Source: Pseudomonadota bacterium
GTDB taxonomy: Bacteria; Pseudomonadota; Gammaproteobacteria; Eutrophobiales; Eutrophobiaceae
NCBI GenBank assembly: GCA_022574295.1
Contig: JACZSJ010000011.1
Coordinates: 1 to 35,515, forward strand
Direction: 5' to 3'
DNA: 35,515 nt
Part shown: piece after piece, positions 8,208 through 29,197 of the stretch
Layout: every line of letters starts with the position of its first letter
Position numbering within the stretch: the first letter of the stretch is position 1
Notes under the pieces: model-generated
The model's input: the letters and a program-made list of their open reading frames with translations, nothing else
Told to the model about the DNA's origin: nothing
Databases searched by the model: none
Made by a program: the position numbers and the translations under genes

Positions 8208-9158
8208 ATGAATTTTCTGGAATTTGAGCAGCCAATTGCAGAGCTAGATGCAAAGATTGAAGAGTTGAGATATGTCGGTGATGACTCGGAAATAAATATA
8301 AATGAAGAGATTATCCGACTGCAGAAACGCAGTGATGAATTAACTGCATCCATATTTTCTTCATTATCAACCTGGCAATATTCCCAGGTTGCAAGACATC
8401 CGCAGAGGCCCTATACCCTGGATTATATCGAGAGGATATTTTCAGATTTTGAGGAGCTGCATGGTGACCGAAGCTTCGCCGATGATCCTGCATTGGTGTG
8501 TGGGATCGGTCGGCTGGAAGGTGTTCCTGTTGCAATTATTGGACATCAAAAAGGGCGTGATACCAATGACAGGATTTATAGAAACTACGGTATGGCAAGA
8601 CCTGAGGGTTACCGAAAAGCGTTACGGATTATGAAACTTGCAGAACGTTTTAAATTGCCAGTATTAACATTTATTGATACGCCAGGTGCTTATCCTGGTA
8701 TTGATGCTGAAGAACGTGGGCAAAGTGAAGCGATTGCAAGAAATTTGATTACAATGACAGCATTAAAAACACCAATTATTGCGACAGTGATTGGAGAAGG
8801 AGGTTCGGGTGGTGCTCTGGCAATTGGTGTGGCAGATAAATTGTTTATGATGGAATACAGTACCTACTCTGTGATTTCACCGGAAGGCTGTGCCTCTATA
8901 TTATGGAAAAATGCAGATAAGGCAGAAGAAGCTGCAGAGGCGATGAAGATCACGGCCAAAAATTTGCAGGAACTTGGTTTAATTGACGAAATTATTGGGG
9001 AACCTCTTGGTGCCGCACATAGGGATTATGATAAAACAGCTGAAATGCTAAAGAATTCATTAGTCAGGGCAGTCAATGAATTAGTATCAGTTAATATTGA
9101 TGATTTGGTTGATACCAGGCAGGCACGCATCAGACAATACGGTTGCTTTACCAGTTAA
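8208..9158 (+). CDS. accA: Acetyl-CoA carboxylase carboxyltransferase subunit alpha AccA
   Basis: The 316-residue protein is the alpha half of the carboxyltransferase that moves CO2 from carboxybiotin to acetyl-CoA, giving malonyl-CoA for fatty acid synthesis. The N-terminus ([19 protein letters not shown]) is the family's helical start. The crotonase-like core contains [29 protein letters not shown] and [15 protein letters not shown], whose glycines form the oxyanion region. It lies 76 bp after dnaE, the usual gammaproteobacterial neighbour, and 39 bp before tilS. Nothing is missing. Confidence 0.97.
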
Positions 9159-9197: not shown

Positions 9198-10550
9198 GTG
9201 TCTCAAGAAAATAAGTTCCCTTTCCAAACACATGTAAAAGAAATTTTATCCGGATTTCCAGAAGCTGGGACATGCTGGATAGCATATAGCGGCGGGCTGG
9301 ATTCTCACGTGCTTTTGCATGTATTAGCGAACATCAAAAATGAAATTAAACCCGAATTGATGGCAGTTCATGTCAACCATGGTCTGAGTCGACATGCGGA
9401 ATCATGGCAGAAACATTGTCAGAGCGTATGTGAAAATTATGCAATTAAGATCCTGACTTTCACGATAGATATCGCTCAAAAAAACAATAAAGGGACTGAA
9501 GCATTTGCCAGAAAGAAACGTTATGAAATATTTGCTAACTTGATGATGGATCATGATTTATTACTGACGGCGCACCATCTTAATGATCAAGCGGAGACTA
9601 TGTTGCTACAATTGATCCGAGGATCCGGGCCGGATGGGTTGGCCGGTATGCCGCGATCCAGAGAATTTTCAAATGGATTCCTGGTCAGGCCCTTACTCGA
9701 TTACTCCAGAGAAGAAATTCATGAATATGCATTGAATGAATCTTTGCACTGGGTCGAAGATGAGAGTAACAAATTAAACCAATACGATCGTAATTACCTA
9801 AGAAATGAAATTATTCCTGGACTACTCACACGTTGGCCAGGCGCATTAAAGACAATTTGTCGTGCAACAAGACACCAGGCTGAGGCCAGGAATCTTATCA
9901 ATGAGATCGCAGAAAATGATTTAGAGGCTGCATGTAGGAACGCATGGTCAAAAATTGATTTGACTGAATTTGATAAGTTATCTCTGGTCAGAAAAAGGAA
10001 TGTCCTGAGAGCATGGATTAAAAGGAATCGCATGGAGATTCCTAATGCTCAGATTATTGAAAAGATCCATAATGAAGTTATTCATGCCAATAGTGAGAGA
10101 AATCCATGTATCAATTGGGAAGGAGCAGAGGTCAGGCGTTACCGGGGATTCCTATACATTATGCGGCCACTGCCTAATCACGATGTGAAAACGACAACCA
10201 TTTGGGATTTGAAAGAAAAACTAAACTTAACATCGGGTTGTCTAAAGGCAGACCTTAGCGAAGGTTGTGGTATCAGGAGAGAGATAATATCAAGTGACAG
10301 TGTAGAAATCAGATATAGGCAGGGTGGGGAAAGAATCAGGCCATCAGGCCGTGATCATTCACATGAACTAAAGAAACTGTACCAGGATGAGGGCGTGCTT
10401 CCATGGCTTCGTGATCGAATACCATTAATTTATTTTGAAAATGAATTAATTGCAGTGGGTGATTTATGGGTTGAACACAAATACGCAGCATCTCAGTCAG
10501 AGCCTGGCTGGCAGATAAAATGGGTCTGGAAATGGGAAGGAGGTTGGTGA
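9198..10550 (+). CDS. tilS: tRNA(Ile)-lysidine synthase TilS
   Basis: TilS attaches lysine to C34 of the CAU-anticodon tRNA-Ile, switching decoding from AUG to AUA. The N-terminal PP-loop is IAYSGGLDSHVLL. The adenylation domain continues with VHVNHGL and TAHHLNDQAETMLLQLIRG. A middle helical domain follows, then the TilS C-terminal domain (RYRQGGERIRPSGR, ELKKLYQDEGVLPWLRDRIP). Its 450 residues are in the normal range. The start is GTG, with no better in-frame ATG preserving the N-terminal region. The accA-tilS order is conserved in the class. Confidence 0.96.
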   Translation: MSQENKFPFQTHVKEILSGFPEAGTCWIAYSGGLDSHVLLHVLANIKNEIKPELMAVHVNHGLSRHAESWQKHCQSVCENYAIKILTFTIDIAQKNNKGTEAFARKKRYEIFANLMMDHDLLLTAHHLNDQAETMLLQLIRGSGPDGLAGMPRSREFSNGFLVRPLLDYSREEIHEYALNESLHWVEDESNKLNQYDRNYLRNEIIPGLLTRWPGALKTICRATRHQAEARNLINEIAENDLEAACRNAWSKIDLTEFDKLSLVRKRNVLRAWIKRNRMEIPNAQIIEKIHNEVIHANSERNPCINWEGAEVRRYRGFLYIMRPLPNHDVKTTTIWDLKEKLNLTSGCLKADLSEGCGIRREIISSDSVEIRYRQGGERIRPSGRDHSHELKKLYQDEGVLPWLRDRIPLIYFENELIAVGDLWVEHKYAASQSEPGWQIKWVWKWEGGW

Positions 10551-10562
10551 CCAGAAACCTGC

Positions 10563-11408
10563 ATGGAGGTGTCTATAAGTGTATTAAACAGGCCTTGGTG
10601 CCTTGGAATCAACTATGTTAGAAAACATAACATGACAGCAAAAAACACATTAAATAGATTGATTAGCGCAATCAAAAATATATTTTCCCGATTTGAAACA
10701 TCTCCTTGTGTCCACATTGATAGTAATGATTCTGGCGGTCACTCGATACTAGATATGAGGCAAAAGGAGAAGCATATCTATGGTGAAGATAGAATTAAAC
10801 AACAAAAACTCTATGAGAAGTGGGTTGTAAAAGAAAGTTGGCATCTAAAAAATCAGGCAATTCCATTACTGCTCTCAATGGATCCTGAAAACGTTTCGAT
10901 ATCATTATGTGATGAAGAGATCAAACAAAAATATCAGGATTTATGGGAGCATGCCCAGCATTGCGTTGAACAAGAATTACTTTTTGTTCTGAATCGGGAG
11001 TGTCCAGTAGATGAGTGGGAAGCAAGTCCTATTGATGTTTATAAATGGGCGGCAATAAGTCGAGTGGAACTGCCAAAAGAATTGTCACCCTTAATGGAAT
11101 TTGTAATGAAGTCACTGGTTTCCAGTACGAATTTTAGTAATAATTCGCGTAGTAGTAAAAAACAGGATGATGTTTCAGCCGACAGGGGCAAGGAACGTAT
11201 TTTGGGTGCTGCGTTGTCAATGTTAGCGGCTTATCCAGAACGGTGTCGGAATAAAAAAGGTCGCGTGAGGGCTGAAAATATTCTTAACTTAATCAATGAA
11301 AATGAAAATGCCTTGTTCGGAGAAAAAATACCTGAATTGTCATTTACAGTAGGCTTAGATATTATTAATCAGTGGCTCAAGATAAACGGAACTAAAGCAA
11401 GCACTTGA
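10563..11408 (+). CDS. Unrecognised protein encoded downstream of tilS
   Basis: I do not recognise a family. The product is 281 residues from ATG 10563, or 258 from ATG 10632, which gives a tidier basic N-terminus (MTAKNTLNRLISAIKNIFSRF). Neither start has a clear ribosome binding site; the first is only 12 bp after tilS. The protein looks soluble and mostly helical, with no signal peptide or membrane segment. The middle is rich in Trp, Glu and Gln (EKWVVKESWHLKNQAIPLL). The best-conserved-looking part is the end, ERILGAALSMLAAYPERCR followed by a charged helix. Codon use resembles the neighbours, so it is probably a real gene in the tilS operon. Confidence 0.75.
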   Translation: MEVSISVLNRPWCLGINYVRKHNMTAKNTLNRLISAIKNIFSRFETSPCVHIDSNDSGGHSILDMRQKEKHIYGEDRIKQQKLYEKWVVKESWHLKNQAIPLLLSMDPENVSISLCDEEIKQKYQDLWEHAQHCVEQELLFVLNRECPVDEWEASPIDVYKWAAISRVELPKELSPLMEFVMKSLVSSTNFSNNSRSSKKQDDVSADRGKERILGAALSMLAAYPERCRNKKGRVRAENILNLINENENALFGEKIPELSFTVGLDIINQWLKINGTKAST

Positions 11409-11452: not shown

Positions 11453-12985
11453 CTAATTTACAGACGGTATCCTTGTATCTTGTATGATAGTGTCTTCTTC
11501 CAACTGATAATCTGTGGGCATTAACGTGAATCTAAGCTCTACATCTCCAATTTCTATCACATCACTTTCATTCAGTTTATATCTGCCAATTTTTTCACCA
11601 TTAACAAAGACACCATTGAGTGAATTCAGGTCTATTATGGTGAATTCATCCCCTGTATCCCGATGAATTTCTGCATGACGTCTGGAGACTGAAGCGTCTC
11701 TTAATGTGATCTCGTTATTTTTGCTACGACCAAGTCTACAGGTGCTTCTGATGATCGGGTATCTCACCATTGGGTCATCATGAGTTATCAGGAAGGCATA
11801 CGGTTTTACTTCCGGGGAATTCACTGTAGTCAGCTGATTTTTATTCTGTCGCCTTAACGATATAAAAAAAGTAGCAATTGTCAGAATTATTAATATAAAC
11901 AGTGCGACAGGTATGCCATACCATAGCCAGCTCTCAAGAGGATTGGTCTTTTGTGCCTGTGCCACGATCTGGATCGGTATGTTTGCCTGGGATTCACTTT
12001 TGCCTTGTTTTTCTTTGAGGAGAGGTATTTGCTGAATAATCGTTGTTGGCATCTGTATTACAGGTGGAGAAACAAATACAACGGGTACGGGAATAGCCGT
12101 AGTACCGATATCTGTTTCAAAATTGAGTATGATATTTGTTTCGCCATTCACCCTGTTGTTGATTATTCTGCCCAATGGAATACTGAAGCCTCCGCCATTA
12201 TCAAGACTGGCAAAAGGCTGATGTAAAAAATTGGGTGAAATATCAAATTGATAATTGGCCTCTACAAATATGCCCCCGGTTTCTTCGCTGAGCCTTCTTA
12301 AGGTCTGCAGTGAGACGGATTGCGCGACAGATCTCGGATAACCGATGCTTGTTATAATAATTCCTGCTTTTCTTGCCGCATTAACAACATCATTGTGAAA
12401 ATAGGCTTTATCTTCTGCCAGCCCATCGGAAAAAAGGAAGATCGACTTTCTGGCAGCATCAACATCTCTGAATAGTACGATGGCCTCAAGCATATTTCTG
12501 TACAATTCTGTTGTGCTACCGATTGCCTTCAATCTTTTTGCTGCATTATTTATGGTTGTAATATCTGAACCAATCGGGGCTTCTAATTGCAATTCCTTAT
12601 CAAAGCTGGCAAGACCAAAACGATGATAATCTTTAAATGATGACAAAATTGTCTTTATATGCTCAATATTTTTGTCGATAACATTTTGTCGTGCGGGATC
12701 ACTGGTATCGACCAGAAATAGTATCGCAGTGATTTCATCTGGATGAGGGTAGGAATCCCCTTCCTTGATAAGAAGGTTTGTATTTTCGTATTCAGCTGAT
12801 ATAGACAGAACAGGAGCCGCAGTACTATTTCTATAATGACATGATAAAACCTGTTTGTCCCTTGATTGCTGACAAGTGACAACCATGTCGTTGGAGATAT
12901 GATAGAGCGTATCGGCTTGTGTTATTGCTGTGATTAAAAATAGTTGCAACAACACCACAAAATTGAGATATTTCATGCTCTTCAT
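11453..12985 (-). CDS. Transmembrane protein with periplasmic vWA domain and cytoplasmic FHA domain
   Basis: About 510 residues from ATG 12985, chosen because a signal peptide (residues 1-24, ending ITQA) follows directly and a GAGAG sequence precedes it. Earlier in-frame TTG/ATG starts exist at 13033 and 13009. A vWA-like domain spans ~85-250: the metal site reads DTSDP at 93-97 instead of DxSxS, with GSTTELY near 156 and FSDGLAED near 186. A membrane helix lies at ~354-377. The FHA domain (~412-495) is canonical: LGRSKNNEI, SVSRRHAEI, LNSLNGVFVNGE. The topology puts vWA outside and the phosphothreonine-binding FHA domain inside. It is the last gene of the motor-like operon. Confidence 0.88.
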   Translation of the reverse strand: MKSMKYLNFVVLLQLFLITAITQADTLYHISNDMVVTCQQSRDKQVLSCHYRNSTAAPVLSISAEYENTNLLIKEGDSYPHPDEITAILFLVDTSDPARQNVIDKNIEHIKTILSSFKDYHRFGLASFDKELQLEAPIGSDITTINNAAKRLKAIGSTTELYRNMLEAIVLFRDVDAARKSIFLFSDGLAEDKAYFHNDVVNAARKAGIIITSIGYPRSVAQSVSLQTLRRLSEETGGIFVEANYQFDISPNFLHQPFASLDNGGGFSIPLGRIINNRVNGETNIILNFETDIGTTAIPVPVVFVSPPVIQMPTTIIQQIPLLKEKQGKSESQANIPIQIVAQAQKTNPLESWLWYGIPVALFILIILTIATFFISLRRQNKNQLTTVNSPEVKPYAFLITHDDPMVRYPIIRSTCRLGRSKNNEITLRDASVSRRHAEIHRDTGDEFTIIDLNSLNGVFVNGEKIGRYKLNESDVIEIGDVELRFTLMPTDYQLEEDTIIQDTRIPSVN

Positions 12986-13057
12986 AACAATAGTCTGCTC
13001 TCTCAACATATCGATTTTTGATTTATTTATCAAGTTTTATTTCCCAGGTTTTATTTC

Positions 13058-13567
13058 TCAGGAAACAGGGGGTCCGGCAGATCGTAAATATTGTATGTCC
13101 AGACTCTTTTGCCCAATTTCTGATGAATCAACCACTTCTTGTTGCATCATGCTATCTTCCTCGTATTCTCCAAGTTGAGGGATACCTCGGTCAATCTTTG
13201 ATTGAACATTGATAATTTTTTCGTGTAGTAAGCTAGAGTATGGGAGCACATATGCTCTTGGCAAGACACGAGTGGTGATATCCTCAACTTCTTTCAGCCA
13301 CAGAAAAATAGAGCCTTCTTCTCCTGTTAATTTATCAGGTTGGTGTACTGCTGTAGCAAGTAATCTGAAATGCGCAGGCAATTTTTGACTTGTAGGCCAG
13401 CCTAGTAATGGGGGAAATGAAAAATAAGAAACGATATAAAAAACCGATGTGATGATAATTGTGATGGCCTTAAGCTGCCATGACCATTTTGAGTACAAAT
13501 TAATGCTCAGTAATAATACTGCCAATAGAATATACGCAGCTATTAGACCAGAAATTCCCAGAGTCAT
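13058..13567 (-). CDS. Two-TM inner-membrane protein of the motor-like operon (unknown family)
   Basis: The 169-residue product begins with two hydrophobic segments, ~6-22 (SGLIAAYILLAVLLLSI) and ~33-50 (KAITIIITSVFYIVSYF), joined by a short basic loop. A ~115-residue soluble region follows. It contains PPLLGWPTSQKLPAHFRLLA, then an acidic C-terminus. I cannot name a family. It lies between the ExbD-like gene (79-bp gap) and the vWA-FHA gene on the same strand. The inferred role is an accessory inner-membrane subunit of the same complex. Confidence 0.8.
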   Translation of the reverse strand: MTLGISGLIAAYILLAVLLLSINLYSKWSWQLKAITIIITSVFYIVSYFSFPPLLGWPTSQKLPAHFRLLATAVHQPDKLTGEEGSIFLWLKEVEDITTRVLPRAYVLPYSSLLHEKIINVQSKIDRGIPQLGEYEEDSMMQQEVVDSSEIGQKSLDIQYLRSAGPPVS

Positions 13568-13646
13568 TGTTTAAATACCCCTTATTCTTTGATTTTTGAT
13601 GTTTAAAAAATATATCAATCAAACTAGTTGATAAAGCATCATTGTT

Positions 13647-14240
13647 TTATTCCAGAGAGACTAACTGCTTTGGTATGAAATTCAACTTCGATATTTTACC
13701 ATCTCTGCCAATACTGAATCGAAGAGCAGTTTTTTCATCACCAGTTTTTTCCATTTTAATCGTTCCATAATAGACAACTTCCAGTGATGGATTGACTTTA
13801 ACCAGACGGACATTGACATCAACAGGTTTCCCCGTTTCTGATGCGTAATAATGTAAATTAACGACATACTCACCTTTAACAATGCCACGGATTGTAACAA
13901 TCTCCTGATTCAGCGGATTTTCTACTTCCTCGCCATTGATAATGATTGTGTCATTCAATTTTCCTCTGTCATCACGGTCAAGGTGTATTAAACCTGCTTC
14001 TTTATTTCTAAACCAGATTATTCTGCCATCAGGATCTTCAACCCAGGTATCAATATCATCAGGGTTGTTGTCTTCCCAGGTGATTGTGATGATATATTCT
14101 GCTTTTGGGTCAATGATACCGCTCTTGGCTTCCGGATTCATGAACATGATGGCCACAAGAAACAGGAATGTAAATCCAAGCAATGCGTTGAATAACAAGT
14201 CGGTAAAAGGATCAGATTTAAATCTTTCTCTGGCAGACAT
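13647..14240 (-). CDS. ExbD/TolR-like proton-channel subunit with an unusual periplasmic domain
   Basis: In this 197-residue protein the first 40 residues copy the ExbD/TolR plan: a short cytoplasmic N-terminus, then one helix beginning DPFTDLLFNALLGFTFLFLV. D13 sits where the ion-carrying Asp of ExbD is found. The rest is not the ExbD fold. It reads EYIITITWEDNNPDDIDTW, then VEDPDGR and HLDRDDRGKLND, an Asp/Asn-rich beta domain that looks able to bind calcium, then TIRGIVKGEYVVNLHYYAS and a C-terminal strand region. It lies 4 bp after the MotA/ExbB-like gene, so the two probably pair as channel subunits. The ExbD assignment rests on the TM motif and context. Confidence 0.82.
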   Translation of the reverse strand: MSARERFKSDPFTDLLFNALLGFTFLFLVAIMFMNPEAKSGIIDPKAEYIITITWEDNNPDDIDTWVEDPDGRIIWFRNKEAGLIHLDRDDRGKLNDTIIINGEEVENPLNQEIVTIRGIVKGEYVVNLHYYASETGKPVDVNVRLVKVNPSLEVVYYGTIKMEKTGDEKTALRFSIGRDGKISKLNFIPKQLVSLE

Positions 14241-14244
14241 ATTT

Positions 14245-14983
14245 TTAATTTAACCTCGGTAAAACGTACACACGAGTAAGATGCCTGATTGAAGCAATTA
14301 AATCATCAGCACTGCGATCCAGCATTTGATATTGTGTTGCTGCCAACACACTACACACCAGTCCAGCCAGCGTTGTGTACAGGGCAGTACCCATGCCAGA
14401 ACTCATGTAAGCGAGTATTTTTTGCATGGTTGTGACATCAAAATCTGTAATGTTGGAGACCGAATCCAGCATAAGGATAAATCCTACGATTGTTCCTAAT
14501 AAGCCCATCTTGATCATGACATCTGCTGTGAACCAGCCAATATCATGGGGGGATTTTAATTTTGATTCATAATATTCGATATGATCATAACTTGTATTTC
14601 TAATTTCAGGGTTATTTTTTTCAGCATTTGTTTTGCTGATGAGGTCGTGTATATAGTCAGTTACCAGACAGTCAGGAAGAAATTTCTCGTTGTTAATTTT
14701 GACTTTATTATCTGAAGTAGCCAATTTTAAATCTTTTTCTTTAACAATCATTAATTCAACAATTCTGGAGTTATTAATCTGTGATGAAATATGAAAGACT
14801 CTCCTTGCACAGTGAATTGTTACGCAACCGTATAACAGGGAGATGGCTATAGATATTTTACTGCGATCTGTAGAAAACAGGAGGGAAAGGACGCCTTGAT
14901 GCCATGCCAGTAGTAGCAGGAAAAAAAACGATGCTAGTAAATATTAACCAGACAAGAAACAAATGATGTTCATGTTTTTGCAT
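14245..14983 (-). pseudogene. MotA/TolQ/ExbB-like proton-channel subunit, frame broken in an 8-T run
   Basis: An uninterrupted frame from ATG 14751 gives only 168 residues, with the channel signature (MGLLGTIVGFILML, YMSSGMGTALYTTLAGLVCSVLAA) but no N-terminal helices and no ribosome binding site. Upstream the same frame continues through a second helix (ISIAISLLYGCVTIHCARRV) and a first helix (LLLLAWHQGVLSLLF). This joins, after deleting one T from the run at 14921-14928, to an ATG at 14983 with AGAGG seven bases upstream (MQKHEHHLFLVWLIFTSIVFF in two parts). The corrected gene is exactly 246 codons. It may be a sequencing error, a fresh null mutation, or expression by slippage; I favour an intact gene in life. 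Confidence 0.85.
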
Positions 14984-15015
14984 TTTTATGCCTCTATTGA
15001 TTATTTCTGGGGCGA

Positions 15016-15522
15016 TTATTCTGATCTAACAGGCTTCCGATCATACACTAACAGCCAATCGTCAGCGGCATAGTCAACAATTTCACGGATCAGCTCATTC
15101 ATTTTTTGCATATGTAATTTGAGCTCATTATCCTTCATTTCCTCTGGCCATAATGGTGCAGTAATGTTGACCCTGGCACCATTTTGACGAACTGTTATTC
15201 GTCCTGGACAAGAACTGATCATATTCGGATCCAGTTCGAGCATCTTCTTCGCGTAGTTCAGGTTACAATAGAGAAGTACCTCGTAGTCTGGAAAATCCGG
15301 ATTATTTCTGTCTCTAATTGCCTTGCCAATATGTAGATGACTGGTCAGACGAAAGTTACGTTCGGTAATAGCGAAGATTGCATCATCAAGAACCTCTTCG
15401 AAAGGTTTATTGGTTTCTATCTGATAGTAATCATTGTGGTTGATATTTTCATCAACTTCAATAGAACATCCTGACTGCATGAAGAGAATGAAAAAGGCAA
15501 GGGATAGACCGGAACATTTCAT
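15016..15522 (-). CDS. DUF302-family lipoprotein
   Basis: This 168-residue protein has a short hydrophobic leader ending FMQSGCS, where Cys19 is a probable lipidation site (the lipobox is not ideal). The body shows DUF302 features: EEVLDDAIFAITERNFRLTS, IGKAIRDRNNPDFPDYEVLL, YCNLNYAKKMLELDP, then a buried-core strand and GRITVRQNGARVNI. DUF302 proteins are small alpha/beta proteins with no established reaction. The start ATG (15522-15520) overlaps the transpeptidase stop by one base (TAATG), so the two are translationally coupled. The gene ends 32 bp before the corrected channel-subunit start. Confidence 0.87.
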   Translation of the reverse strand: MKCSGLSLAFFILFMQSGCSIEVDENINHNDYYQIETNKPFEEVLDDAIFAITERNFRLTSHLHIGKAIRDRNNPDFPDYEVLLYCNLNYAKKMLELDPNMISSCPGRITVRQNGARVNITAPLWPEEMKDNELKLHMQKMNELIREIVDYAADDWLLVYDRKPVRSE

Positions 15523-16121
15523 TATTCGTTAATAATGACCCTCGTACCTATTCCGACATATTTTTTTAAATCATTGATTTCTTCATTAGTTAACGCGATA
15601 CAACCTTGCGTCCAGTTAATCTCACTATGAATAGCAAGTTTTTGTTCAGTGGTATCTCCCAGACCGTGTATGCCTATATAACCACCTAGTTTTGTGTCCT
15701 GTGGAGCTACTTTGTCATGCTTGATTGCAGTGGTAATATTTTTAAATTCAATGGCACTGATTACTTTATTTTTATATCCATACCAGGCATCTAACAGGTT
15801 GGGATAGTCAAGCTGCATAAAATAATGGAACCTACTATCACCTTTGAATTTAACAATTTTGTACACGCCCAAAGGTGTTTTTTCATCTCCCAGTTTTCTT
15901 TTGGCACCATTACCACCTTTCCCGTAGGCAATATGAAATAGCTTAACAACCTGTTTGCCGTCCATCACTTTAAGTTCCTGAGATGTTCTGGAGATAACTA
16001 AATTATATTTGCCTTCCACTGCAGAAATATTGCTGCATAGCAACAATAATAAACAGATGAGGTAACACTTGCAAAGATTGTGAGTGCGCATTGTCACTGT
16101 ACGAGCACTTGAATTTTTCAT
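15522..16121 (-). CDS. L,D-transpeptidase (YkuD family), periplasmic
   Basis: The 199-residue product carries an N-terminal export signal (CKCYLICLLLLLCSNISAVEG) and one YkuD domain. Visible are NLVISRTSQELKVMDGK, RKLGDEKTPLGVYKI, and the catalytic block IGIHGL...LAIHSEINWTQGCIAL. In that block TQGC replaces the usual SHGC or SRGC around the nucleophilic Cys. Such enzymes make 3-3 peptidoglycan cross-links, attach proteins to peptidoglycan, or cut such links; the sequence does not say which. The start could also be ATG 16091. It is the first gene of the minus-strand run that continues through DUF302 and the motor genes. Confidence 0.92.
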   Translation of the reverse strand: MKNSSARTVTMRTHNLCKCYLICLLLLLCSNISAVEGKYNLVISRTSQELKVMDGKQVVKLFHIAYGKGGNGAKRKLGDEKTPLGVYKIVKFKGDSRFHYFMQLDYPNLLDAWYGYKNKVISAIEFKNITTAIKHDKVAPQDTKLGGYIGIHGLGDTTEQKLAIHSEINWTQGCIALTNEEINDLKKYVGIGTRVIINE

Positions 16122-16225
16122 TTGCTATGAATTTCTAGCCCAGATTATTTTCTGGCTATTTTATCTGGAAAAGCACAGATACGGTAATCAAAAGATTGAA
16201 AATTCTGCTAATATTACCTCATGTC

Positions 16226-16255
16226 GCTGAGCAGCTGAGGGTGCTCGGCTTTTTT
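16226..16255 (+). terminator. Possible rho-independent terminator upstream of cytochrome b561
   Basis: GCTGAGCA (16226-16233) can pair with TGCTCGGC (16242-16249), with one G-U, over an 8-base loop, and six Ts follow. The orientation is plus, yet the gene upstream on that strand is far away and the next plus gene starts at 16352. It could end read-through antisense to the transpeptidase operon, or act as an attenuator in a b561 leader. No promoter is clear. Confidence 0.4.
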
Positions 16256-16351
16256 ATTGCATAAAACTAATGCGTCTAAAACAGCGTGTTTGGAAAAATC
16301 ACCCTGAAAAAGACTATTTCTGTGGCAGCCTATGAGCGGAGTTGACTTTGA

Positions 16352-16894
16352 ATGATGACTGATCAGGAGAGATATAGCAGAACCGCAATGTTTTTGCACT
16401 GGGTGATGGCAATTCTGTTGATCACCCTATTTGGTCTGGGATGGTATATGGTGGATTTACCAAAAGGAAGTGATGAGAGAAGCTGGTTTTTTGCCTTGCA
16501 TAAGTCCATCGGACTGACAATGGCCTTACTAGCCTTGATAAGGCTTGCCTGGCGTTTCACACATGCGCCTCCCGCATTACCTGAATTTATTACAGGGTTT
16601 AAACGACAACTCGCCGGATTGATTCACTGGCTGCTCTATCTGGCAATGTTTATACAGCCCGTATCCGGTTACATTTCTTCATCGTTCAGTGGATACAAAA
16701 CAAAAATATGGGGCTTGCCACTTCCTCATTGGGGATGGAAATCTCCCGTATTAAACGAGATTTTTACAGATATACACGTGGCTAGCTCTATCACCCTACT
16801 GTGTCTGATAGTGATCCACTTAGGTGGTGTGATCATCCATGTATGTAGAGGTGAAGTGAGTATCTTGAGAAGAATGATTCCGGCCAGGAAATGA
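16352..16894 (+). CDS. Cytochrome b561 family di-haem membrane protein
   Basis: The 180-residue protein has four membrane helices: FLHWVMAILLITLFGLGWYM, FALHKSIGLTMALLALIRLA, IHWLLYLAMFIQPVSGYISS and IHVASSITLLCLIVIHLGGV. Histidines in each helix are placed as in the bacterial b561 family (HW in helix 1, HK in helix 2, HW in helix 3, H..H in helix 4) and should ligate two b haems. Family members pass electrons between quinol and partners, or oxidise superoxide (E. coli CybB). ATG 16355 is an equally good start. No partner periplasmic protein gene is adjacent, and the gene appears monocistronic. Confidence 0.93.
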   Translation: MMTDQERYSRTAMFLHWVMAILLITLFGLGWYMVDLPKGSDERSWFFALHKSIGLTMALLALIRLAWRFTHAPPALPEFITGFKRQLAGLIHWLLYLAMFIQPVSGYISSSFSGYKTKIWGLPLPHWGWKSPVLNEIFTDIHVASSITLLCLIVIHLGGVIIHVCRGEVSILRRMIPARK

Positions 16895-17000: not shown

Positions 17001-17102
17001 CATGGTCGCTTCTGCGCATCCGTGCGCCCGCGACATACCGTACGTCCTGTACATGGTCGCTCCTGCGCATCCGTGCGCCCGCGACATACCGTACGTCCTG
17101 TA
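17001..17102. repeat. Two tandem 51-bp GC-rich hairpin repeats
   Basis: Bases 17001-17051 and 17052-17102 are copies of a 51-bp unit that differ at one position (C/T at the 11th base). A third copy begins (CAT) before A-rich sequence takes over. Each unit can form nested stems: GTCGC with GCGAC around GCGCA with TGCGC. It also holds the near-palindrome CCGTACG. Just upstream CCATGGGCAT is itself repeated (16981-16990 and 16994-17003). The GC content is far above the surroundings. The unit resembles a dispersed intergenic repeat, but no other copy lies in this window. Confidence 0.8.
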
Positions 17103-17105
17103 CAT

Positions 17106-17225: not shown

Positions 17226-17510
17226 TATGTTTCTCCTAATTTAGTTAAAGTAAGAATACTACTCAATTAAAAAGACCTAATTCCGGTAAAAGTTCTAAAT
17301 TTTGATTTTCACCGGGTGCCAACACGTGCCAGGCACATTTGTACAAAAGCAGAAACCATGCCAGTTTTTAGATATTATTTGGTCACAAGAAGATTCCCTA
17401 TAAAATCAATATCTTATACTTAAGATGGTTGTTGTAGAACGGGGTGTTATAGGCAAGTATTTAGACAAATTCTAAATAATGGATAACAACAACCAGAGAA
17501 ATTGGTTAAT
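17226..17510. promoter_or_regulatory. Divergent intergenic region between pqqA and the histidine kinase gene
   Basis: About 285 bp of AT-rich sequence. The notable element is GGTGCC-AACAC-GTGCCAGGCAC at 17315-17336, which includes the 11-bp palindrome GTGCCAGGCAC (17326-17336). It could be an operator for either gene. No convincing sigma70 or sigma54 promoter of correct spacing was found. Confidence 0.3.
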
Positions 17511-19013
17511 ATGAACCAATTACTAGTCACACAGCGGATCTTGATGAAAATAAAATATCTAAATTCCTTACGCAAGCTCCTGTTTGTCCAAGAAGTTGCT
17601 TTTTTATTATTACTGGCCCTTACAGGCTTGTTAGGTGGTTTATCTGCTTACTTTTGGCAACAGAATTCGGAGGAGTCAGTTCGATTAAATGAACTAAGTT
17701 ACGTGACTGAGCAAATTCGCAGCGAATTATTCCGACAAATTCAGGAAGCTATACGTGCCCGCTTGCTCGAAGATGTACGATCTCTGGAATTGTACGGGGA
17801 ATATTCGCGACGGATTGACAAAAATTTCAATAAACTGCGCAGTAACGCAATCTCGCGCGTTGAAAATACTGCCATTCAGGACTTACATGTTTCTTATAGA
17901 GAGATTCAGAAAGATATGAATTCAATTTTCGCCGATCCCTATGCAATTAGCTTACAAACGCGAATGAGAATCCTTGACCCACGTTTTGCTAATAGAATGA
18001 TAGGCCGATTTGAGGGAAAGTACGGTAGATTGAAATATATGTTGGCGGAAGAACGCAATGCATTGAATCACAAGTTAGAGATATGGTCACAATATGCACC
18101 TGTTGTAATCACGATTCCCCTGTTGCTGGCATTTATTTTAGTCATTTATGCGAGAATGACTTTTCGCAAGGAATTTCTAAAACCAATTTCTGAGATCATT
18201 GCTGGTGCCCGACTTATCAGTGTAGGGCATCTCGAAACGAAGATGCCGGAGCAGGGTGTCGAAGAAGTAAAAGATTTGGCTGGTGCCATCAATAAAATGG
18301 CTGGTGATCTTCAAATTAGTCAAGCTGCTCTGGTAGAGAGTGAAAAACAGGCCGCACTGGGTGCCTTGATCCCTGTTGTTGCGCACAACATTCGCAACCC
18401 TTTAGCCAGTATCAGGGCAACCGCACAACTATTGGACGACCCGGAAGACAAGGAAGATTTGGAGGAGAGCAAAAATGCTATCATTGAAACGACGGATAGA
18501 CTCAGCCGTTGGGTAAATGCCTTGGTTTCATACCTGCATCCATTAAAACCAAATTACAGGCTTATTTTAGCGAGTAAAATGCTTGAAGCAGCCATCGTAC
18601 TATTGAAACCCAAAATAGAAGAAAAACAGCTGAAGTTAGAGAAAATTGGTTGGGAGAATGATTTAAGGCTTAATGTAGATCCTGATCTAATGGAACAGGC
18701 CATTTACGCCCTGATGGCCAATGCAATTGATGCGTCTCCGAGTGGTTCTACGTTGACGATCGAGCTTATTAAAAAAGATGCTGAGCTTGAAATGTCCATA
18801 CATGATCAGGGGCCAGGTTTGCCCTTTGATCCTAAACCCAATCAGTTAACGCCCGGCCCAAGTACGAAAAGTTTCGGGACTGGTCTTGGAATACCCATTG
18901 CTTTCAAGATCTGTCAGAAGCATGGCTGGAATTTAAGTTTTGATTCCTCAGAGAAAGAAGGGACAAAAGTAATGATTACTGCACCTATCAGAGTGATTGA
19001 AGATAACGATTAA
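17511..19013 (+). CDS. Membrane sensor histidine kinase of an NtrC-type pair
   Basis: About 500 residues: TM1 at ~27-48 (VAFLLLLALTGLLGGLSAYF), a helical periplasmic sensor to ~190 without a recognisable ligand domain, TM2 at ~195-214, HAMP (~215-265), then HisKA and HATPase_c. The phospho-acceptor is His292 in VVAHNIRNPLASIRA. The residue after it is Asn, where most kinases of this class have Glu or Asp. N box ALMANAIDASPSG, G boxes DQGPGLPFD and GTGLGIPIA are present. ATG 17511 is preferred to TTG 17502; ATG 17544 is possible. The stop is one base before the regulator's ATG, so the two are coupled. Confidence 0.93.
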   Translation: MNQLLVTQRILMKIKYLNSLRKLLFVQEVAFLLLLALTGLLGGLSAYFWQQNSEESVRLNELSYVTEQIRSELFRQIQEAIRARLLEDVRSLELYGEYSRRIDKNFNKLRSNAISRVENTAIQDLHVSYREIQKDMNSIFADPYAISLQTRMRILDPRFANRMIGRFEGKYGRLKYMLAEERNALNHKLEIWSQYAPVVITIPLLLAFILVIYARMTFRKEFLKPISEIIAGARLISVGHLETKMPEQGVEEVKDLAGAINKMAGDLQISQAALVESEKQAALGALIPVVAHNIRNPLASIRATAQLLDDPEDKEDLEESKNAIIETTDRLSRWVNALVSYLHPLKPNYRLILASKMLEAAIVLLKPKIEEKQLKLEKIGWENDLRLNVDPDLMEQAIYALMANAIDASPSGSTLTIELIKKDAELEMSIHDQGPGLPFDPKPNQLTPGPSTKSFGTGLGIPIAFKICQKHGWNLSFDSSEKEGTKVMITAPIRVIEDND

Positions 19014-19014
19014 T

Positions 19015-20442
19015 ATGCATGAAATTGAACCAATGATAACTTCTATGGAAGTGCCCGCTATCGATAAACAGATCCTTATCGTTGAAGATGAGATTGTGTT
19101 TGCAAAAGCAGTCAAAAAACACTTGGCGCGAGCGGGTTACAAAAGTGAAATTGCAGGTGATCTGAATACTGCAAGAGATAAATTTGAGTCACTGACGCCC
19201 GACCTCGTCTTACTTGATATGCGTCTTCCTGATGGATCCGGTCTCGATTTTCTCGAAGCTGTAAAAAACGAAGGAAATTCAAATGTTGCCGTATTGGTGA
19301 TGTCTGCCTATGGTGAACTCGATGATGCTGTGTCTGCTATGAAGCTAGGCGCAACAGACTACCTGAAGAAACCAATAGATTTGGAAGAGCTGCTGATTAA
19401 TATTAAAAAAGTACTGGATAAAAATGAACTTGAAACAAAATTAGTCAATTCAAGCAAACGTGAACGCAATGCCTCCGAATCTATAGAATTTATTGGAGAA
19501 TGTCCGGAGATAATCTCGATAAAACAACAGATCGAACAAATTGGTCGCTTAACCTATGCATCAGATACCGTGCCGCCAACCGTTTTGATACTCGGTGAGA
19601 CAGGGACAGGTAAAGATGTTGTCGCAAGATCATTACATGCGAGCGCATCACTAAGTGATAAACCTTTTGTGCAGGTGGACTGTGCTTCATTACCAAAAGA
19701 TCTTATTGAAGCTGAGTTATTTGGTCATGAAAAAGGTGCATTTACAAGTGCCCATTCAGCACGTACTGGACTGATAGAAGCAGCTGAAGATGGTGCATTG
19801 TTTCTTGATGAAATCGGGGAATTACCTATGGATTTACAGTCCAAATTGCTGGCTGTCTTAGATAGAAGACTGATGCGCCGAGTTGGGACCACGAAGGAAT
19901 TGCCTGTTCGCGCCTGGTTTATTGCCGCAACGAACAGGAAAATTGAAGAATTGGTTGAAAAAAGAGAATTCAGATCAGATCTATACTACCGACTTAATGT
20001 TTTGAGCATTGAAATGCCCCCTTTAAGAGAGCGTGGAAACGACATTATCATGTTAGCGAGGTATTTTGCCAAACAGACAGCGAGACGTTATGGCTTTGAA
20101 AATGTGACGTTTACTGACGAAGCCATGCAAACTATCATAGAATACCCTTGGCCAGGAAATATCCGTGAAATGAAGCATCTGATCGAGAGAGCTGTGTTAT
20201 TAAACAATGGCGGAGAACTTTCCTCAAGTGCTCTCGGTTTGACAAATCAGCCTCTCAAAGGCAACACGGATAAATCACAAGACAGTCATTCAAAGATTGA
20301 AGATATGTCGCTGGAGTCGGCAGAATTCACACTGATTAAACAAGCATTGGAAAAGGCAAATGGTAATGTATCCAAGGCAGCCAGAGAGCTGGACATTACC
20401 CGTATGGCGCTAAGATACAGGATGAAGAAATATAATTTATAG
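19015..20442 (+). CDS. Sigma54-dependent response regulator (NtrC family)
   Basis: About 475 residues in three domains. REC has the acidic pair in LIVEDE and phospho-acceptor Asp68 in LVLLDMRLPDG. The AAA+ sigma54-interaction domain has Walker A GETGTGKDVV and Walker B ALFLDEIGELP. The loop that touches sigma54 reads GAFTSA at 241-246 instead of GAFTGA; arginine-finger region FRSDLYYRLNVL follows. A Fis-type helix-turn-helix ends the protein (NGNVSKAARELDITRMALRY). It starts with ATG 19015 directly after the kinase stop; a TTG at 18997 is also in frame. Targets are unknown; pqqA and the kinase promoter region are the nearest candidates. Confidence 0.95.
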   Translation: MHEIEPMITSMEVPAIDKQILIVEDEIVFAKAVKKHLARAGYKSEIAGDLNTARDKFESLTPDLVLLDMRLPDGSGLDFLEAVKNEGNSNVAVLVMSAYGELDDAVSAMKLGATDYLKKPIDLEELLINIKKVLDKNELETKLVNSSKRERNASESIEFIGECPEIISIKQQIEQIGRLTYASDTVPPTVLILGETGTGKDVVARSLHASASLSDKPFVQVDCASLPKDLIEAELFGHEKGAFTSAHSARTGLIEAAEDGALFLDEIGELPMDLQSKLLAVLDRRLMRRVGTTKELPVRAWFIAATNRKIEELVEKREFRSDLYYRLNVLSIEMPPLRERGNDIIMLARYFAKQTARRYGFENVTFTDEAMQTIIEYPWPGNIREMKHLIERAVLLNNGGELSSSALGLTNQPLKGNTDKSQDSHSKIEDMSLESAEFTLIKQALEKANGNVSKAARELDITRMALRYRMKKYNL

Positions 20443-25562: not shown

Positions 25563-26819
25563 ATGAAAATACTTATCGTCGACGATTCAAAAGATTTCAG
25601 AACATTGGCAAGCTCATTTCTTACCAGAGAACTGGAAGATGTAGAACCAATTGAATATGAAGTGGAAGAGCTCGGGAAACCCGCTGATGATTTCTTATGG
25701 TCAGATTATGATGTATTACTGCTCGATTATAATCTTGGGGGTGGGGAAAATGGTTTTGACTGGTTAAAAGAGTTTGGTCGGAAGACTGGATTTCCACCAA
25801 CAATTATTCTAACCGCAGAAGGGGACGAATATATTGCTGTGAAAGCAATTAAACTCGGAGCCGTTGATTATATCAATAAAGTAGATGTCACTCCCAAACG
25901 GCTGGCTGAAGTTATCAGAGAAGCACTTGAGCAAACACCACAAGTCATTGCACAGCAGGAAAAAGATATTATCAACGCGACACATATTGTCGATGAAATT
26001 CATCGGCAGAAAAAAAAGTCGCTGGCAGATGCAGGACTGGATATCGGTTATAAATTTGTCCGAAAGATAGGACAGGGCGCAATGTCAGAAGTCTATCTGG
26101 CTGAGCGTATAGGAGACAATCAATCACTTGTGCTAAAAGTACTTGATATAAAAAACGCTTCCGAGCATGCGGCAATTGAACGTTTCGTTCTTGAGGCAGA
26201 ACTAATCGAAGGACTGAACAGTCCTTTTGTAGTGAAGGTATTTGAACACGGCCTAACTGATGACTATGCTTTTATCGCCATGGAATTCTTTTCTCGTGGT
26301 GATTTAAAGCAACGAATGGAACTAAATATCCCTCCTGAGTTGGCTGCGACATACGTGGTACATATCGCATATGGACTCAATGAGATTCATAAGGTTGGCG
26401 TAATACACAGAGATTTAAAGCCTGCGAATGTGATGTTTCGTGGTGATGACAGCCTGGCATTGGCTGATTTCGGTATTTCAAAAAAAATAAATTCAGGCAA
26501 TAATTTAACAACACTAGGACAAATAATTGGTACGCCTCACTATATGAGCCCGGAACAGGGGGAGGGTCTGGTTATTGATATACGTACGGATTTATATAGT
26601 GCTGGGGTGATGCTTTATGAGATATTGATGAAAGAGAAACCTTTCAGGGCAACTACTCCAGCTGCATTAATATATCAGCATGTGCATGAAGCTATTCCCA
26701 GATTGCCAGAAGAACTGAGCAGGTTTCAGGACATCATTGATAAATTGATGGCAAAAAATCCTGGCGACAGGTATCAGTCAGCATCCGAACTTATCTCCGT
26801 GTTGACCCCATTAGAATAA
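25563..26819 (+). CDS. Response-regulator receiver fused to a Ser/Thr protein kinase
   Basis: A 418-residue fusion. REC domain (1-125): acidic pair D7-D8, phospho-acceptor Asp55 in DYDVLLLDYNLGGG, Thr84 and Lys106. A helical linker (~125-160) leads to a Hanks-type kinase (~163-415). The kinase has glycine loop IGQGAMSEVYLAE, Lys192 in LVLKVLDI, catalytic HRDLKPANV (Asp284), ADFG (Asp302) and GTPHYMSPEQ. All catalytic residues are present. No membrane segment or sensor domain follows, so the kinase is probably cytosolic and switched by phosphorylation of the receiver. It is a monocistronic plus-strand gene, convergent with the Ton operon. Its phosphothreonine products could be read by the FHA protein at 11453-12985 (inference). 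Confidence 0.94.
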   Translation: MKILIVDDSKDFRTLASSFLTRELEDVEPIEYEVEELGKPADDFLWSDYDVLLLDYNLGGGENGFDWLKEFGRKTGFPPTIILTAEGDEYIAVKAIKLGAVDYINKVDVTPKRLAEVIREALEQTPQVIAQQEKDIINATHIVDEIHRQKKKSLADAGLDIGYKFVRKIGQGAMSEVYLAERIGDNQSLVLKVLDIKNASEHAAIERFVLEAELIEGLNSPFVVKVFEHGLTDDYAFIAMEFFSRGDLKQRMELNIPPELAATYVVHIAYGLNEIHKVGVIHRDLKPANVMFRGDDSLALADFGISKKINSGNNLTTLGQIIGTPHYMSPEQGEGLVIDIRTDLYSAGVMLYEILMKEKPFRATTPAALIYQHVHEAIPRLPEELSRFQDIIDKLMAKNPGDRYQSASELISVLTPLE

Positions 26820-26866: not shown

Positions 26867-28114
26867 CTAGGTTTTACTGTTTGATGCCTTTGCTGATTCT
26901 TCCTCAATTTGTTCCAACCACCATGCCGCTTGCTCTCTGGTTTCCTTAAATCCTAGTGCCTTGTCCAGGGCTTGCCTTGATCGAAGCGTATCTTTCTGGT
27001 GATACGAAGAGATGCCAAGTAACAACCATGCATTTGATTCAAGATCTTGCAGGTTCTTCAGGGCATGTCCTGAGACAGCAAGTTCTAAAGCATTTTTGGC
27101 GTTGTTCCAGTCTTCGAGTTCAACATAAATGTGGCCAAGTTTGTAATACAGGGAGGCATCATCAAAATCCTTTGCAAAACGATTCAGTAATATCGCCGCC
27201 TGTTCTGGTTCATGTGCAAGTAGCCAACTGTTAGAAAGTAATTCAATATTGATCTTTGAGACTTCCACCTGTCCATTGTTGAGCCCTGTCTCAAGAATGG
27301 TTGCGGATTTAAGTGGCATTTGTAAATAAAGATAGGTCTGCGCAAGTTGAATAATAGCATTACCTTTTAACATTCCTTTTTCATACGCGAGTTCAGAAAC
27401 TGCCAATCCCTTTTTCTCCTGCCTATTTTGTTGATAAACAGCCGCAAGTTGTAACCAGTAGCTATCATTATCAGGATAATTAATTATCATTTTTTCCAGT
27501 AATAAGGCAGCATCTTTATACATGCTTGTTTCATAATATCCAGCGAGGAGTAATTCGTACCATGACTGTTGTGGCGCATCAGATTTTTTTATTGCAGATT
27601 TTGCATGAGGGATCATCTGCTTAAATTGATTTATTTGATAATATGCTGTTGCCGCTAATAGATGTGATTCCGAAGAAGGGCTCGGTTCATTTTCAAACCA
27701 TTTATCAAGATAACTCAGGCCTTGTGTGTATTCCTCTGTGTGTATTAATGATTGGGCAATAATATAATCGAGTTCATGTGTCACATTATCAGGCAATGCA
27801 TTTGCAGTGGTTGCCTTCACAAATGACTCTATAGAGAGAACATAATTATTCAGGCCATTGTAGGCATAGCCCAGCGTTTGATAAACAACTGCTGTGTCAT
27901 AGGGCTTGATAGTATCTTTTCCGAGATAGCCGTTCAGTTTCTGAATTGCAATCTGAAAATATTCTTCTTCCATTACACCGCGAACTTCATTGAGAAGATC
28001 ATAGGTTTCTTTAGTTAACAAATACTGATTATCATTTTCGTTAGCCTGTTCATCAGCTTGGGCAAGATATGAGGCAAATATAAGTATGCTGAGAATAATT
28101 AAACGTGAACACAT
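26867..28114 (-). CDS. TPR-repeat periplasmic protein of the Ton operon
   Basis: The 415-residue protein has a cleavable signal peptide (LIILSILIFASYLAQADE) and TPR-like helical repeats over most of its length: YQTLGYAYNGLNNYVLSIES, YWLQLAAVYQQNRQEKKGLA, YYKLGHIYVELEDWNNAKNA, AWLLLGISSYHQKDTLRSRQ. It lies 5 bp after tonB, the place where Vibrio- and Alteromonas-type TonB2 operons carry a TPR gene. It is probably an accessory factor of that Ton machine in the periplasm; the exact role is not established. Confidence 0.9.
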   Translation of the reverse strand: MCSRLIILSILIFASYLAQADEQANENDNQYLLTKETYDLLNEVRGVMEEEYFQIAIQKLNGYLGKDTIKPYDTAVVYQTLGYAYNGLNNYVLSIESFVKATTANALPDNVTHELDYIIAQSLIHTEEYTQGLSYLDKWFENEPSPSSESHLLAATAYYQINQFKQMIPHAKSAIKKSDAPQQSWYELLLAGYYETSMYKDAALLLEKMIINYPDNDSYWLQLAAVYQQNRQEKKGLAVSELAYEKGMLKGNAIIQLAQTYLYLQMPLKSATILETGLNNGQVEVSKINIELLSNSWLLAHEPEQAAILLNRFAKDFDDASLYYKLGHIYVELEDWNNAKNALELAVSGHALKNLQDLESNAWLLLGISSYHQKDTLRSRQALDKALGFKETREQAAWWLEQIEEESAKASNSKT

Positions 28115-28119
28115 AACAT

Positions 28120-28812: not shown

Positions 28813-29188
28813 TGTTCACACCTGACAACCTTATCTGATCCAGTACGGCTACTGTTACACCTGTCAGTGCGTTCTTGTCTGCCATAATAATGACAGTGCC
28901 TTCTGGATTCTGTGCATGTAATTGTTCAATATGTGCACGGATTGATCGAATATCCACCTGTTTGTTATCGATCCATATTTCACCTTCCTTGGTGATTCCA
29001 ATTATCAGGCTGGCCTGCTCCTGACGAACAGTTGTTTGTGCCGTGGGCCTATCGACATCAATTCCAGATTCTTTGGTAAACGAGGCAGTGACTAAAAAGA
29101 AGATCAATAAAATAAACACCATATCAATCAACGGCGTCAGATTTACATTCGCTGCAGTAGTTTCCTGTTCAGTATGGCTATGACGCAT
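28784..29188 (-). CDS. exbD: Biopolymer transport protein ExbD
   Basis: The 134-residue protein has one membrane helix with the ExbD/TolR signature VNLTPLIDMVFILLIFFLV. Its Asp is the protonatable residue of the channel. A small periplasmic ExbD domain follows (LIIGITKEGEIWIDNKQVD, VTVAVLDQIRLSGVNNVAIA). It pairs with ExbB 9 bp upstream and overlaps tonB. It is distinct from the ExbD-like gene at 13647-14240, whose periplasmic part is different. Confidence 0.95.
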   Translation of the reverse strand: MRHSHTEQETTAANVNLTPLIDMVFILLIFFLVTASFTKESGIDVDRPTAQTTVRQEQASLIIGITKEGEIWIDNKQVDIRSIRAHIEQLHAQNPEGTVIIMADKNALTGVTVAVLDQIRLSGVNNVAIAASKK

Positions 29189-29197
29189 AATTATTCG

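Follow-up and report, generated by a model that had tools for sequence, protein, structure and literature searches.

To our knowledge, the proton-driven periplasmic machines that are understood are few, i.e. the Ton and Tol-Pal systems, the flagellar stators, the gliding and T9SS motors and Zorya. ExbB-ExbD, TolQ-TolR and MotA-MotB are ion-driven 5:2 motors (reviewed in PMC9389320), with which the locus described here shares a MotA_ExbB-family channel carrying GLLGT and TT motifs and a single-transmembrane (TM) partner carrying a P-F-x-D motif. A 2025 publication proposed vWA proteins as force transducers on TolQR motors: TolQ/TolR-like motor genes adjoin, as in the present locus, a membrane-tethered vWA protein, which either carries a TolA/TonB-like helix with an SHLS motif or replaces ExbD itself (PMC12204202). 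In the Agl-Glt gliding machinery of Myxococcus, the TolQR-like AglRQS motor is combined with GltG, a TM protein with a cytosolic FHA domain (PMC3169522), and like ingredients are met in the locus.

The locus is a set of six genes running in one direction on the minus strand (11453-16121), with small gaps or overlaps, within a window of 35,515 nucleotides, as the whole stretch of DNA analysed is called in the following (table 1). The six genes were found at the places given in the initial annotation, and the set indeed contains a second motor of the window, besides the DUF3450/ExbB/ExbD/TonB set. Judged from sequence, it is a conserved yet undescribed gene set, the motor parts of which match none of the standard motors. 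The axle is strongly conserved, yet two of the three motor subunits carry no family model name, and the cell-wall and PQQ-dehydrogenase settings in which the motor occurs raise the question of what a proton motor without TonB or TolA pushes on.

Table 1. Features of the six-gene locus and its surroundings (positions in the window).
Feature	Position	Strand	Remarks
YkuD-domain cell-wall enzyme (putative)	15522..16121	-	Pfam PF03734, E 2.8e-18
DUF302 protein, exported	15016..15522	-	PF03625, E 8.9e-9
exbB, MotA/ExbB-like channel subunit	14245..14983	-	PF01618, E 7.2e-12; frameshift at 14921
ExbD-position axle subunit	13647..14240	-	one TM with PFTD-LLF; beta-rich periplasmic domain
TM2, two TM helices and C-terminal domain	13058..13567	-	frameshift at 13089
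vWA-TM-FHA protein	11453..13033	-	PF00092, E 1.4e-12; PF00498, E 9.1e-21
Divergent intergenic region, presumed promoter region	16122..16351		between YkuD gene and cytochrome b561
Cytochrome b561	16352-16894		flank, divergent from operon
Histidine kinase	17502-19013	+	conserved flank, syntenic neighbour
Sigma-54-type response regulator	18997-20442	+	conserved flank, syntenic neighbour
accA	8208-9158	+	conserved convergent flank, marks chromosomal site
tilS	9198-10550	+	conserved convergent flank, marks chromosomal site
Receiver-domain and Ser/Thr kinase fusion	25563..26819	+	PF00072 and PF00069
DUF3450/ExbB/ExbB/ExbD/TonB/TPR system	26867-31820		same window

Reading frames and promoter region

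Two of the six genes are damaged in the draft genome, which had been missed when exbB and TM2 were first read as intact; relatives carry intact copies. The exbB open reading frame at 14245-14751 is a remnant of a gene whose true start lies at 14983: the break falls in an A8 run with one extra A (A7 in L041, used for comparison), and in relatives the gene is a single reading frame of about 245 aa. In TM2, a +1 shift deprives the window's protein of the conserved tail FYDLPDPLFPEK. Since these are the sole frame breaks in about 15 kb relative to L041 (uncertain start regions excepted), they point to errors in the assembly or, alternatively, to decay of the motor. Programmed frameshifting in exbB was judged unlikely, because the homopolymer is absent from most relatives checked. 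The vWA-FHA gene probably starts at an internal ATG at about 12985 rather than at the TTG at 13033. As a sigma-54-type regulator adjoins, a sigma-54 promoter was sought upstream of the operon, and no conserved site was found there.

Conservation and distribution

The order YkuD – DUF302 – ExbB – ExbD – TM2 – vWA-FHA recurs in dozens of genomes, far above chance. In about ten family groups of Gammaproteobacteria (f1, f9, f12, f133, f137, f156, f161, f183, f196 and f202), the full operon occupies the same chromosomal site, between accA-tilS and the genes for cytochrome b561 and the two-component system, and its order and tight spacing are kept there, with median intergenic gaps of 4-16 bp; co-location in other genomes, for which a gene-neighbourhood check had been proposed, is thus borne out. 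The motor itself was found in 41 of 369 sampled gammaproteobacterial genomes and also in some Alphaproteobacteria, spanning more than twenty families of bacteria, and its copies elsewhere stand alone or within PQQ-dehydrogenase clusters. A plasmid search returned just distant matches, of about 30% identity, in Azospirillum.

The constant gene of the locus is that for the YkuD enzyme: six loci at the same site keep YkuD and vWA-FHA with neither motor nor DUF302, and at least seven keep YkuD and the motor without vWA-FHA. In trees, both kinds of reduced locus nest inside full-operon groups, which, together with the presence of the full operon in other families, points to repeated losses of blocks of genes.

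The ExbB–ExbD–TM2 motor

On sequence evidence, ExbB, ExbD and TM2 form an obligate three-gene motor, which is the real unit of the locus. In the 37-genome family that served as the co-occurrence sample, ExbD and TM2 are present in identical sets of genomes (27/37), so that TM2, earlier listed merely as a two-TM protein, takes the part of an obligate third subunit.

The assignment of ExbB as a MotA/ExbB-like channel subunit is upheld by its PF01618 score (45.6 bits against a curated cut-off of 22.9) and by the channel motifs GLLGT and ALYTTLAGL, the GT and TT of which are kept in 50 homologues; the protein of relatives apparently has four TM helices (three to four by hydropathy). The description of the axle as ExbD-like, on the other hand, holds just for its single N-terminal TM helix (residues 15-33), the P-F-x-D motif of ExbD appearing as PFTD-LLF with Asp14; hhalign of the axle with the window's canonical ExbD gave a probability of 7%. 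The periplasmic part appears, from sequence and model comparison, to be a beta domain weakly resembling DUF2135 rather than an ExbD fold: PF02472 gave no match in the window protein (E up to 1) or in 22 homologues (E up to 0.5), and PF09906 (DUF2135, YfaP-type) matched weakly in 5 of the 22 homologues (best E 0.0012) and not in the window protein. The axle is about 80% conserved within the family, and PFTD, like the channel motifs of ExbB, is present in nearly all cell-wall-linked copies; Asp14 is absent from L035, L037, L093 and Bradyrhizobium-like copies, which makes proton driving questionable in those copies.

TM2 has two TM helices, a C-terminal alpha/beta domain predicted to be periplasmic and the conserved C-terminal tail, and by its sequence it is a new family; no TonB domain was matched in it. 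Neither the axle nor TM2 matched a Pfam or NCBIfam family above cut-off, and the axle profile found no match among PDB sequences. Structure models, of moderate confidence (pLDDT 66 and 75, the latter the mean for TM2), gave nothing significant against solved folds, the best matches being generic beta folds and noise.

The cell-wall enzyme, DUF302 and vWA-FHA

The gene first read as that of an L,D-transpeptidase encodes a protein with a signal peptide and a YkuD domain (67.3 bits, cut-off 23.4) with the catalytic His and Cys in the motif GIHG...H...NWTxGCIALTN, residues kept in 43 homologues; its activity may be that of a transpeptidase, a carboxypeptidase or an amidase. The DUF302 gene lies between the motor genes and the YkuD gene, yet tracks the motor (23/27 motor genomes against 0/10 motor-less genomes, p 3e-6). 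Its designation as a lipoprotein suits part of the family, about 10 of 29 proteins fitting the strict lipobox pattern and some others having a plausible Cys, and does not suit the window protein, whose QSGC misses that pattern.

In the vWA-FHA protein, a signal peptide and a periplasmic vWA domain are followed by a TM helix near residues 373-391 and a cytosolic FHA domain, according to a TM scan. The FHA core GR...S.SR.H...NG is the canonical core predicted to bind phosphothreonine (pThr), and the domain aligns with the pThr-binding GarA and OdhI structures; the proposed link of a periplasmic vWA domain to a predicted cytosolic phosphothreonine reader is supported. The MIDAS of the vWA domain is degenerate, DTSDP replacing DxSxS in 26/29 proteins, and departs from the metal-binding pattern. 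All 26 genomes that encode the protein also have the YkuD gene (p 0.005). With regard to the motor, 19 of the 37 genomes have both, 8 the motor only, 7 vWA-FHA only and 3 neither (p 0.64). The initial view of motor, cell-wall enzyme and FHA protein as one joined machine is not supported, motor and vWA-FHA being independent and each being kept beside YkuD without the other.

As a speculation, the receiver-kinase fusion of the window is a candidate for the kinase that writes the pThr read by the FHA domain. It is sometimes near the locus (adjacent in L098, L103, L107 and L109), and its co-occurrence with vWA-FHA is weak (p 0.007, with no correction for kinship). Genome-wide kinase co-occurrence was discarded as evidence for a writer, kinases being too many and the signal confounded by kinship.

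Possible function and alternatives

The reading preferred here, to which we give slightly less than an even chance, is that a proton-driven envelope device serves an enzyme that edits peptidoglycan, vWA-FHA being a separable regulator, a function that we infer from the genes themselves. An ExbB pentamer would surround an ExbD dimer (5:2 type), and proton flow via Asp14 and the ExbB Thr ring would move the DUF2135-like periplasmic domain of ExbD; the TM hairpin of TM2 may bind the motor, and its C-terminal domain and tail may hand the movement to a periplasmic partner. The target of the device would be the cell wall or the outer membrane, at places where crosslinks are formed or cut, or proteins attached or detached, by the YkuD enzyme; DUF302 would be a periplasmic accessory, and the regulator would tie the enzyme to cytosolic Ser/Thr phosphorylation through FHA. 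The conserved order and spacing, the shared genome sets of ExbD and TM2, the DUF302-motor and vWA-FHA-YkuD links, the block losses and the conserved residues were counted in favour. Counted against were the copies lacking Asp14, the two frameshifts in the window genome, the moderate confidence of models that match no solved fold, the independence of motor and vWA-FHA, and the motors found alone or in PQQ-dehydrogenase clusters, which imply that the motor can do without the cell-wall link. Somewhat more hesitantly, it may be proposed that ExbB–ExbD(beta domain)–TM2 constitutes a class of proton motor in its own right, which has an axle of its own and an obligate third subunit as transducer and is re-used for different tasks in the envelope: here peptidoglycan editing, controlled by Ser/Thr phosphorylation, and elsewhere a task linked to PQQ-dependent oxidation.

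A serious alternative, also counted against the preferred reading, is that the genes lie together by descent, since the accA, tilS, b561 and two-component flanks are as conserved as the six genes. YkuD with vWA-FHA and ExbB-ExbD-TM2 (with DUF302) would then have two functions and stay together because the whole region is conserved, which the mutual independence of motor and vWA-FHA, each found without the other, would also fit; nevertheless, the six genes run in one direction and are closely spaced, unlike the convergent or divergent flanks, and DUF302 follows the motor but sits between it and the YkuD gene. This explanation seems less likely than the preferred one. It is improbable that the motor powers outer-membrane uptake TonB-style, with TM2 as the transducer and the cell-wall locus as one of several settings: some of the paralogous motors in PQQ-dehydrogenase clusters are accompanied by TonB-dependent receptors (L036, L062, L064 and L084), but the cell-wall locus has neither a receptor nor a TonB C-terminal domain, TM2 included, and an ordinary TonB system is encoded separately in the same window. 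A motor for surface motility or adhesion like Agl-Glt, suggested by the ingredients shared with that system and by the proposed vWA force transducers, is quite improbable, as vWA-FHA does not obligatorily accompany the motor, Glt homologues were not noted at the locus, and the likeness to GltG is limited to the FHA domain, the periplasmic part being vWA and not TonB-like. Finally, ZorA is a MotA/ExbB-type channel, and ExbB gives weak ZorA profile matches; these are partial and far below cut-off, there is no ZorB, nuclease or helicase gene and no other PADLOC match, and the locus has a fixed site beside accA-tilS rather than lying in variable islands. A Zorya-related anti-phage defence system is hardly credible and was rejected on account of the sub-threshold matches and missing effector genes.

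Comparison with known systems

That no named system of this composition is known agrees with a literature search, which yielded no published match and nothing describing the system under this gene set, ExbBD with PQQ or lanthanides, or DUF2135, most subscription journals being outside its coverage. DpaA/LdtF (YafK) and other YkuD enzymes share the YkuD fold and the His/Cys active-site motif with the locus enzyme; its likeness to DpaA/LdtF/YafK is weak, the DpaA model giving a partial match below cut-off (41 of 365 bits), as is that to PDB 8ikr. Replacement of Tol-Pal was rejected, TolB being found elsewhere in the genome and in 36/40 sampled genomes.

The DUF3450/ExbB/ExbB/ExbD/TonB/TPR system of the window has a MotA_ExbB channel motor too but differs from the locus in its standard ExbD and in the presence of a TonB C-terminal domain, and the channel subunits of the two are of low similarity (39% over 67 aa). 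With respect to the 5:2 motors, the axle of the locus has its beta domain in place of an ExbD/TolR fold or an OmpA-like domain, and TM2 is an obligate subunit without a family; there is no TonB, TolA, Pal or TolB gene among the six, the lack of TonB and Pal having been pointed out in the initial annotation. In Agl-Glt, GltG has a TonB-like periplasmic end, whereas the locus is devoid of TPR and outer-membrane Glt parts; conversely, Agl-Glt is not known to include YkuD or DUF302 genes. Compared with the vWA force transducers, the locus has a separate, ExbD-like axle of its own, and its vWA protein, in which the TM helix follows the vWA domain and precedes a cytosolic FHA domain, is dispensable to the motor.

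Gene content and reading frames

The six-gene minus-strand run that the initial annotation had placed at 11453-16121 was borne out, all six genes being located there in the same direction. For neither the ExbD-position protein (hereafter the axle) nor TM2, the two-TM third motor subunit, was a known family found above cut-off. In the window, a single additional A, giving an A8 run at 14921, breaks the frame of exbB; L041, a related locus with intact copies, has A7 there and one 245-residue frame. The TM2 gene carries a +1 shift at 13089, with loss of the conserved C-terminal tail FYDLPDPLFPEK. Uncertain start regions aside, comparison with L041 over ~15 kb shows no reading-frame breaks other than these two, both in the motor, which may be assembly errors of the draft genome or genuine decay. 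Programmed frameshifting in exbB is unlikely because most of the relatives checked do not share the homopolymer.

Features of the cell-wall locus and of other parts of the window
Feature	Position	Strand	Basis or remark
YkuD-domain cell-wall enzyme	within 11453-16121	-	domain match
DUF302 protein	within 11453-16121	-	domain match
MotA/ExbB-type channel subunit	start 14983	-	domain match
ExbD-position protein	within 11453-16121	-	no family above cut-off
TM2 two-TM protein	within 11453-16121	-	no family above cut-off
vWA-TM-FHA protein	within 11453-16121	-	domain match
Tandem 14-bp repeat	13022-13062		TM2/vWA-FHA junction; 2.9 copies; L041 without one 14-bp unit
281-aa protein	10563-11408		no Pfam family; conserved in most members of the window's family, lying between tilS and vWA-FHA
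51-bp tandem repeat	17001-17105		between cytochrome b561 and histidine kinase; 2.1 copies, 98% alike
Receiver-Ser/Thr-kinase fusion	25563-26819		
Separate ordinary motor set	26867-31820		DUF3450, two MotA_ExbB, ExbD, TonB C-terminal protein, TPR protein

Recurrence, modularity and proposed function

Co-location elsewhere, on which the initial annotation had made its operon depend, was found: the same genes occupy the same place both in the family to which the window belongs and in about nine further family groups, with tilS-accA converging on them on one side and, on the other, cytochrome b561 and a two-component pair pointing away. The YkuD gene was not seen in family groups f12 and f137 and in one f161 locus (contigs end in some of them), and f202 has neither DUF302 nor vWA-FHA at the locus.

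Among 37 family genomes, in tests that ignore kinship between genomes, the distributions of ExbD and TM2 are identical (27 both, 10 neither, p 3e-9), DUF302 is present in 23 of the 27 motor genomes and never without the motor (p 3e-6), and vWA-FHA is restricted to genomes with the YkuD gene (26/26, p 0.005). The motor had also been thought joined to FHA signalling, which was not supported, as motor and vWA-FHA are independent in the same sample and tests (19 both, 8 and 7 alone, 3 neither, p 0.64) and each is found without the other at the site: YkuD–vWA-FHA only in L098-L102 and L107, YkuD–motor without vWA-FHA in L029, L031, L032, L046, L053, L054 and L055. L103 and L104 keep YkuD–DUF302–TM2–vWA-FHA at the site, with ExbB-ExbD located elsewhere (motors L037 and L093). 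The cell-wall operon is modular and, since trees set the reduced forms among full ones, repeated losses would be the simplest account of them.

Tentatively, we favour a proton-driven motor and a YkuD enzyme engaged in a shared cell-wall task: ExbB-ExbD-TM2 would use protons to displace the periplasmic beta domain, TM2 would pass the movement to a partner at the cell wall, the task would be common to the YkuD enzyme, and vWA-FHA would be a regulator separable from the motor. The main rival, namely two neighbouring functions held together by a conserved region, is judged rather unlikely; positional conservation alone is no proof of shared function, because the flanks are conserved too, and a better hint of it is how closely the genes are packed within the block, all in one direction (median gaps of 4 to 16 bp).

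Properties of the proteins

The YkuD enzyme has a complete active-site motif; its closest named relative, DpaA/LdtF, matches below cut-off, so that transpeptidase, carboxypeptidase and amidase activities are all possible. The vWA-FHA protein has a degenerate MIDAS; its FHA core is canonical and can be aligned with pThr-binding GarA/OdhI. The receiver-Ser/Thr-kinase fusion, whose co-occurrence with vWA-FHA is weak and confounded, is a possible candidate pThr writer.

In relatives of ExbB the channel motifs GLLGT and TTLAGL are conserved, and these proteins seem to span the membrane four times. The description of the axle as ExbD-like stood for its proton-binding TM motif, PFTD-LLF, present in nearly all cell-wall-linked copies (absent in L035 and some paralogues), and failed for its periplasmic part, which does not match ExbD; nor did the axle pass the test for the ExbD family. 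The model of this part is all-beta, of modest confidence (pLDDT 66), and no solved structure matched it; 5 of 22 axle homologues gave weak DUF2135 matches. Axles of L035, L037, L093, L083 and L085-L088 have DPxxAVLF or DPxxVMLF instead of the ExbD-type Asp, the sole Asp kept lying one helix turn earlier, and their proton driving may be different. The TM2 model, a TM hairpin with a small alpha/beta domain (pLDDT 75), matched no solved structure; the positive-inside rule points to a probable periplasmic location of its C-terminal domain.

Motor copies outside the cell-wall locus

The axle occurs in 41/369 genomes of a class-wide and 14/299 of a phylum-wide sample. Other motor copies, found in Gammaproteobacteria and Alphaproteobacteria, lie inside PQQ-dehydrogenase clusters (L036, L038, L065, L084, L108, L156, L157, L162), adjoin a LuxR-type two-component pair (L083, L086-L088) or stand alone next to housekeeping genes. 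Those in PQQ-dehydrogenase clusters are paralogous ExbB-ExbD-TM2 sets, and no publication was found that describes a proton motor in this setting. The clusters contain PQQ dehydrogenase, SoxYZ-like, MxaJ-like and YVTN propeller proteins and a sensor kinase/LuxR pair, and some that hold a motor include TonB-dependent receptors. A lipoprotein-like family of ~240 aa (e.g. L036:10806-11528, L145:7936-8649) adjoins TM2 in most PQQ-cluster and some standalone loci. In L148, L151, L153 and L155 the TM2 gene is present as a tandem pair, one member of which lacks the conserved DPLFPEK tail. A 623-aa protein of PP2C-like phosphatase type adjoins a standalone motor (L159:6569-8440) and is possibly another phospho-Ser/Thr link.

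Comparison with known systems

No paper describing the six-gene set was found in the literature searched, in agreement with the earlier statement that no named system has this composition. ExbB-ExbD-TM2 is likened to 5:2 motors in its way of working; unlike Ton and Tol-Pal, the set is without TonB, TolA and Pal, and a replacement of Tol-Pal was rejected. vWA proteins driven by TolQR-like motors were surveyed in 2025 (PMC12204202), but their architecture differs from that of the locus. The Myxococcus gliding motor, in which a TolQR-like motor is paired with an FHA-TM protein (PMC3169522), is not a match but a useful analogy.
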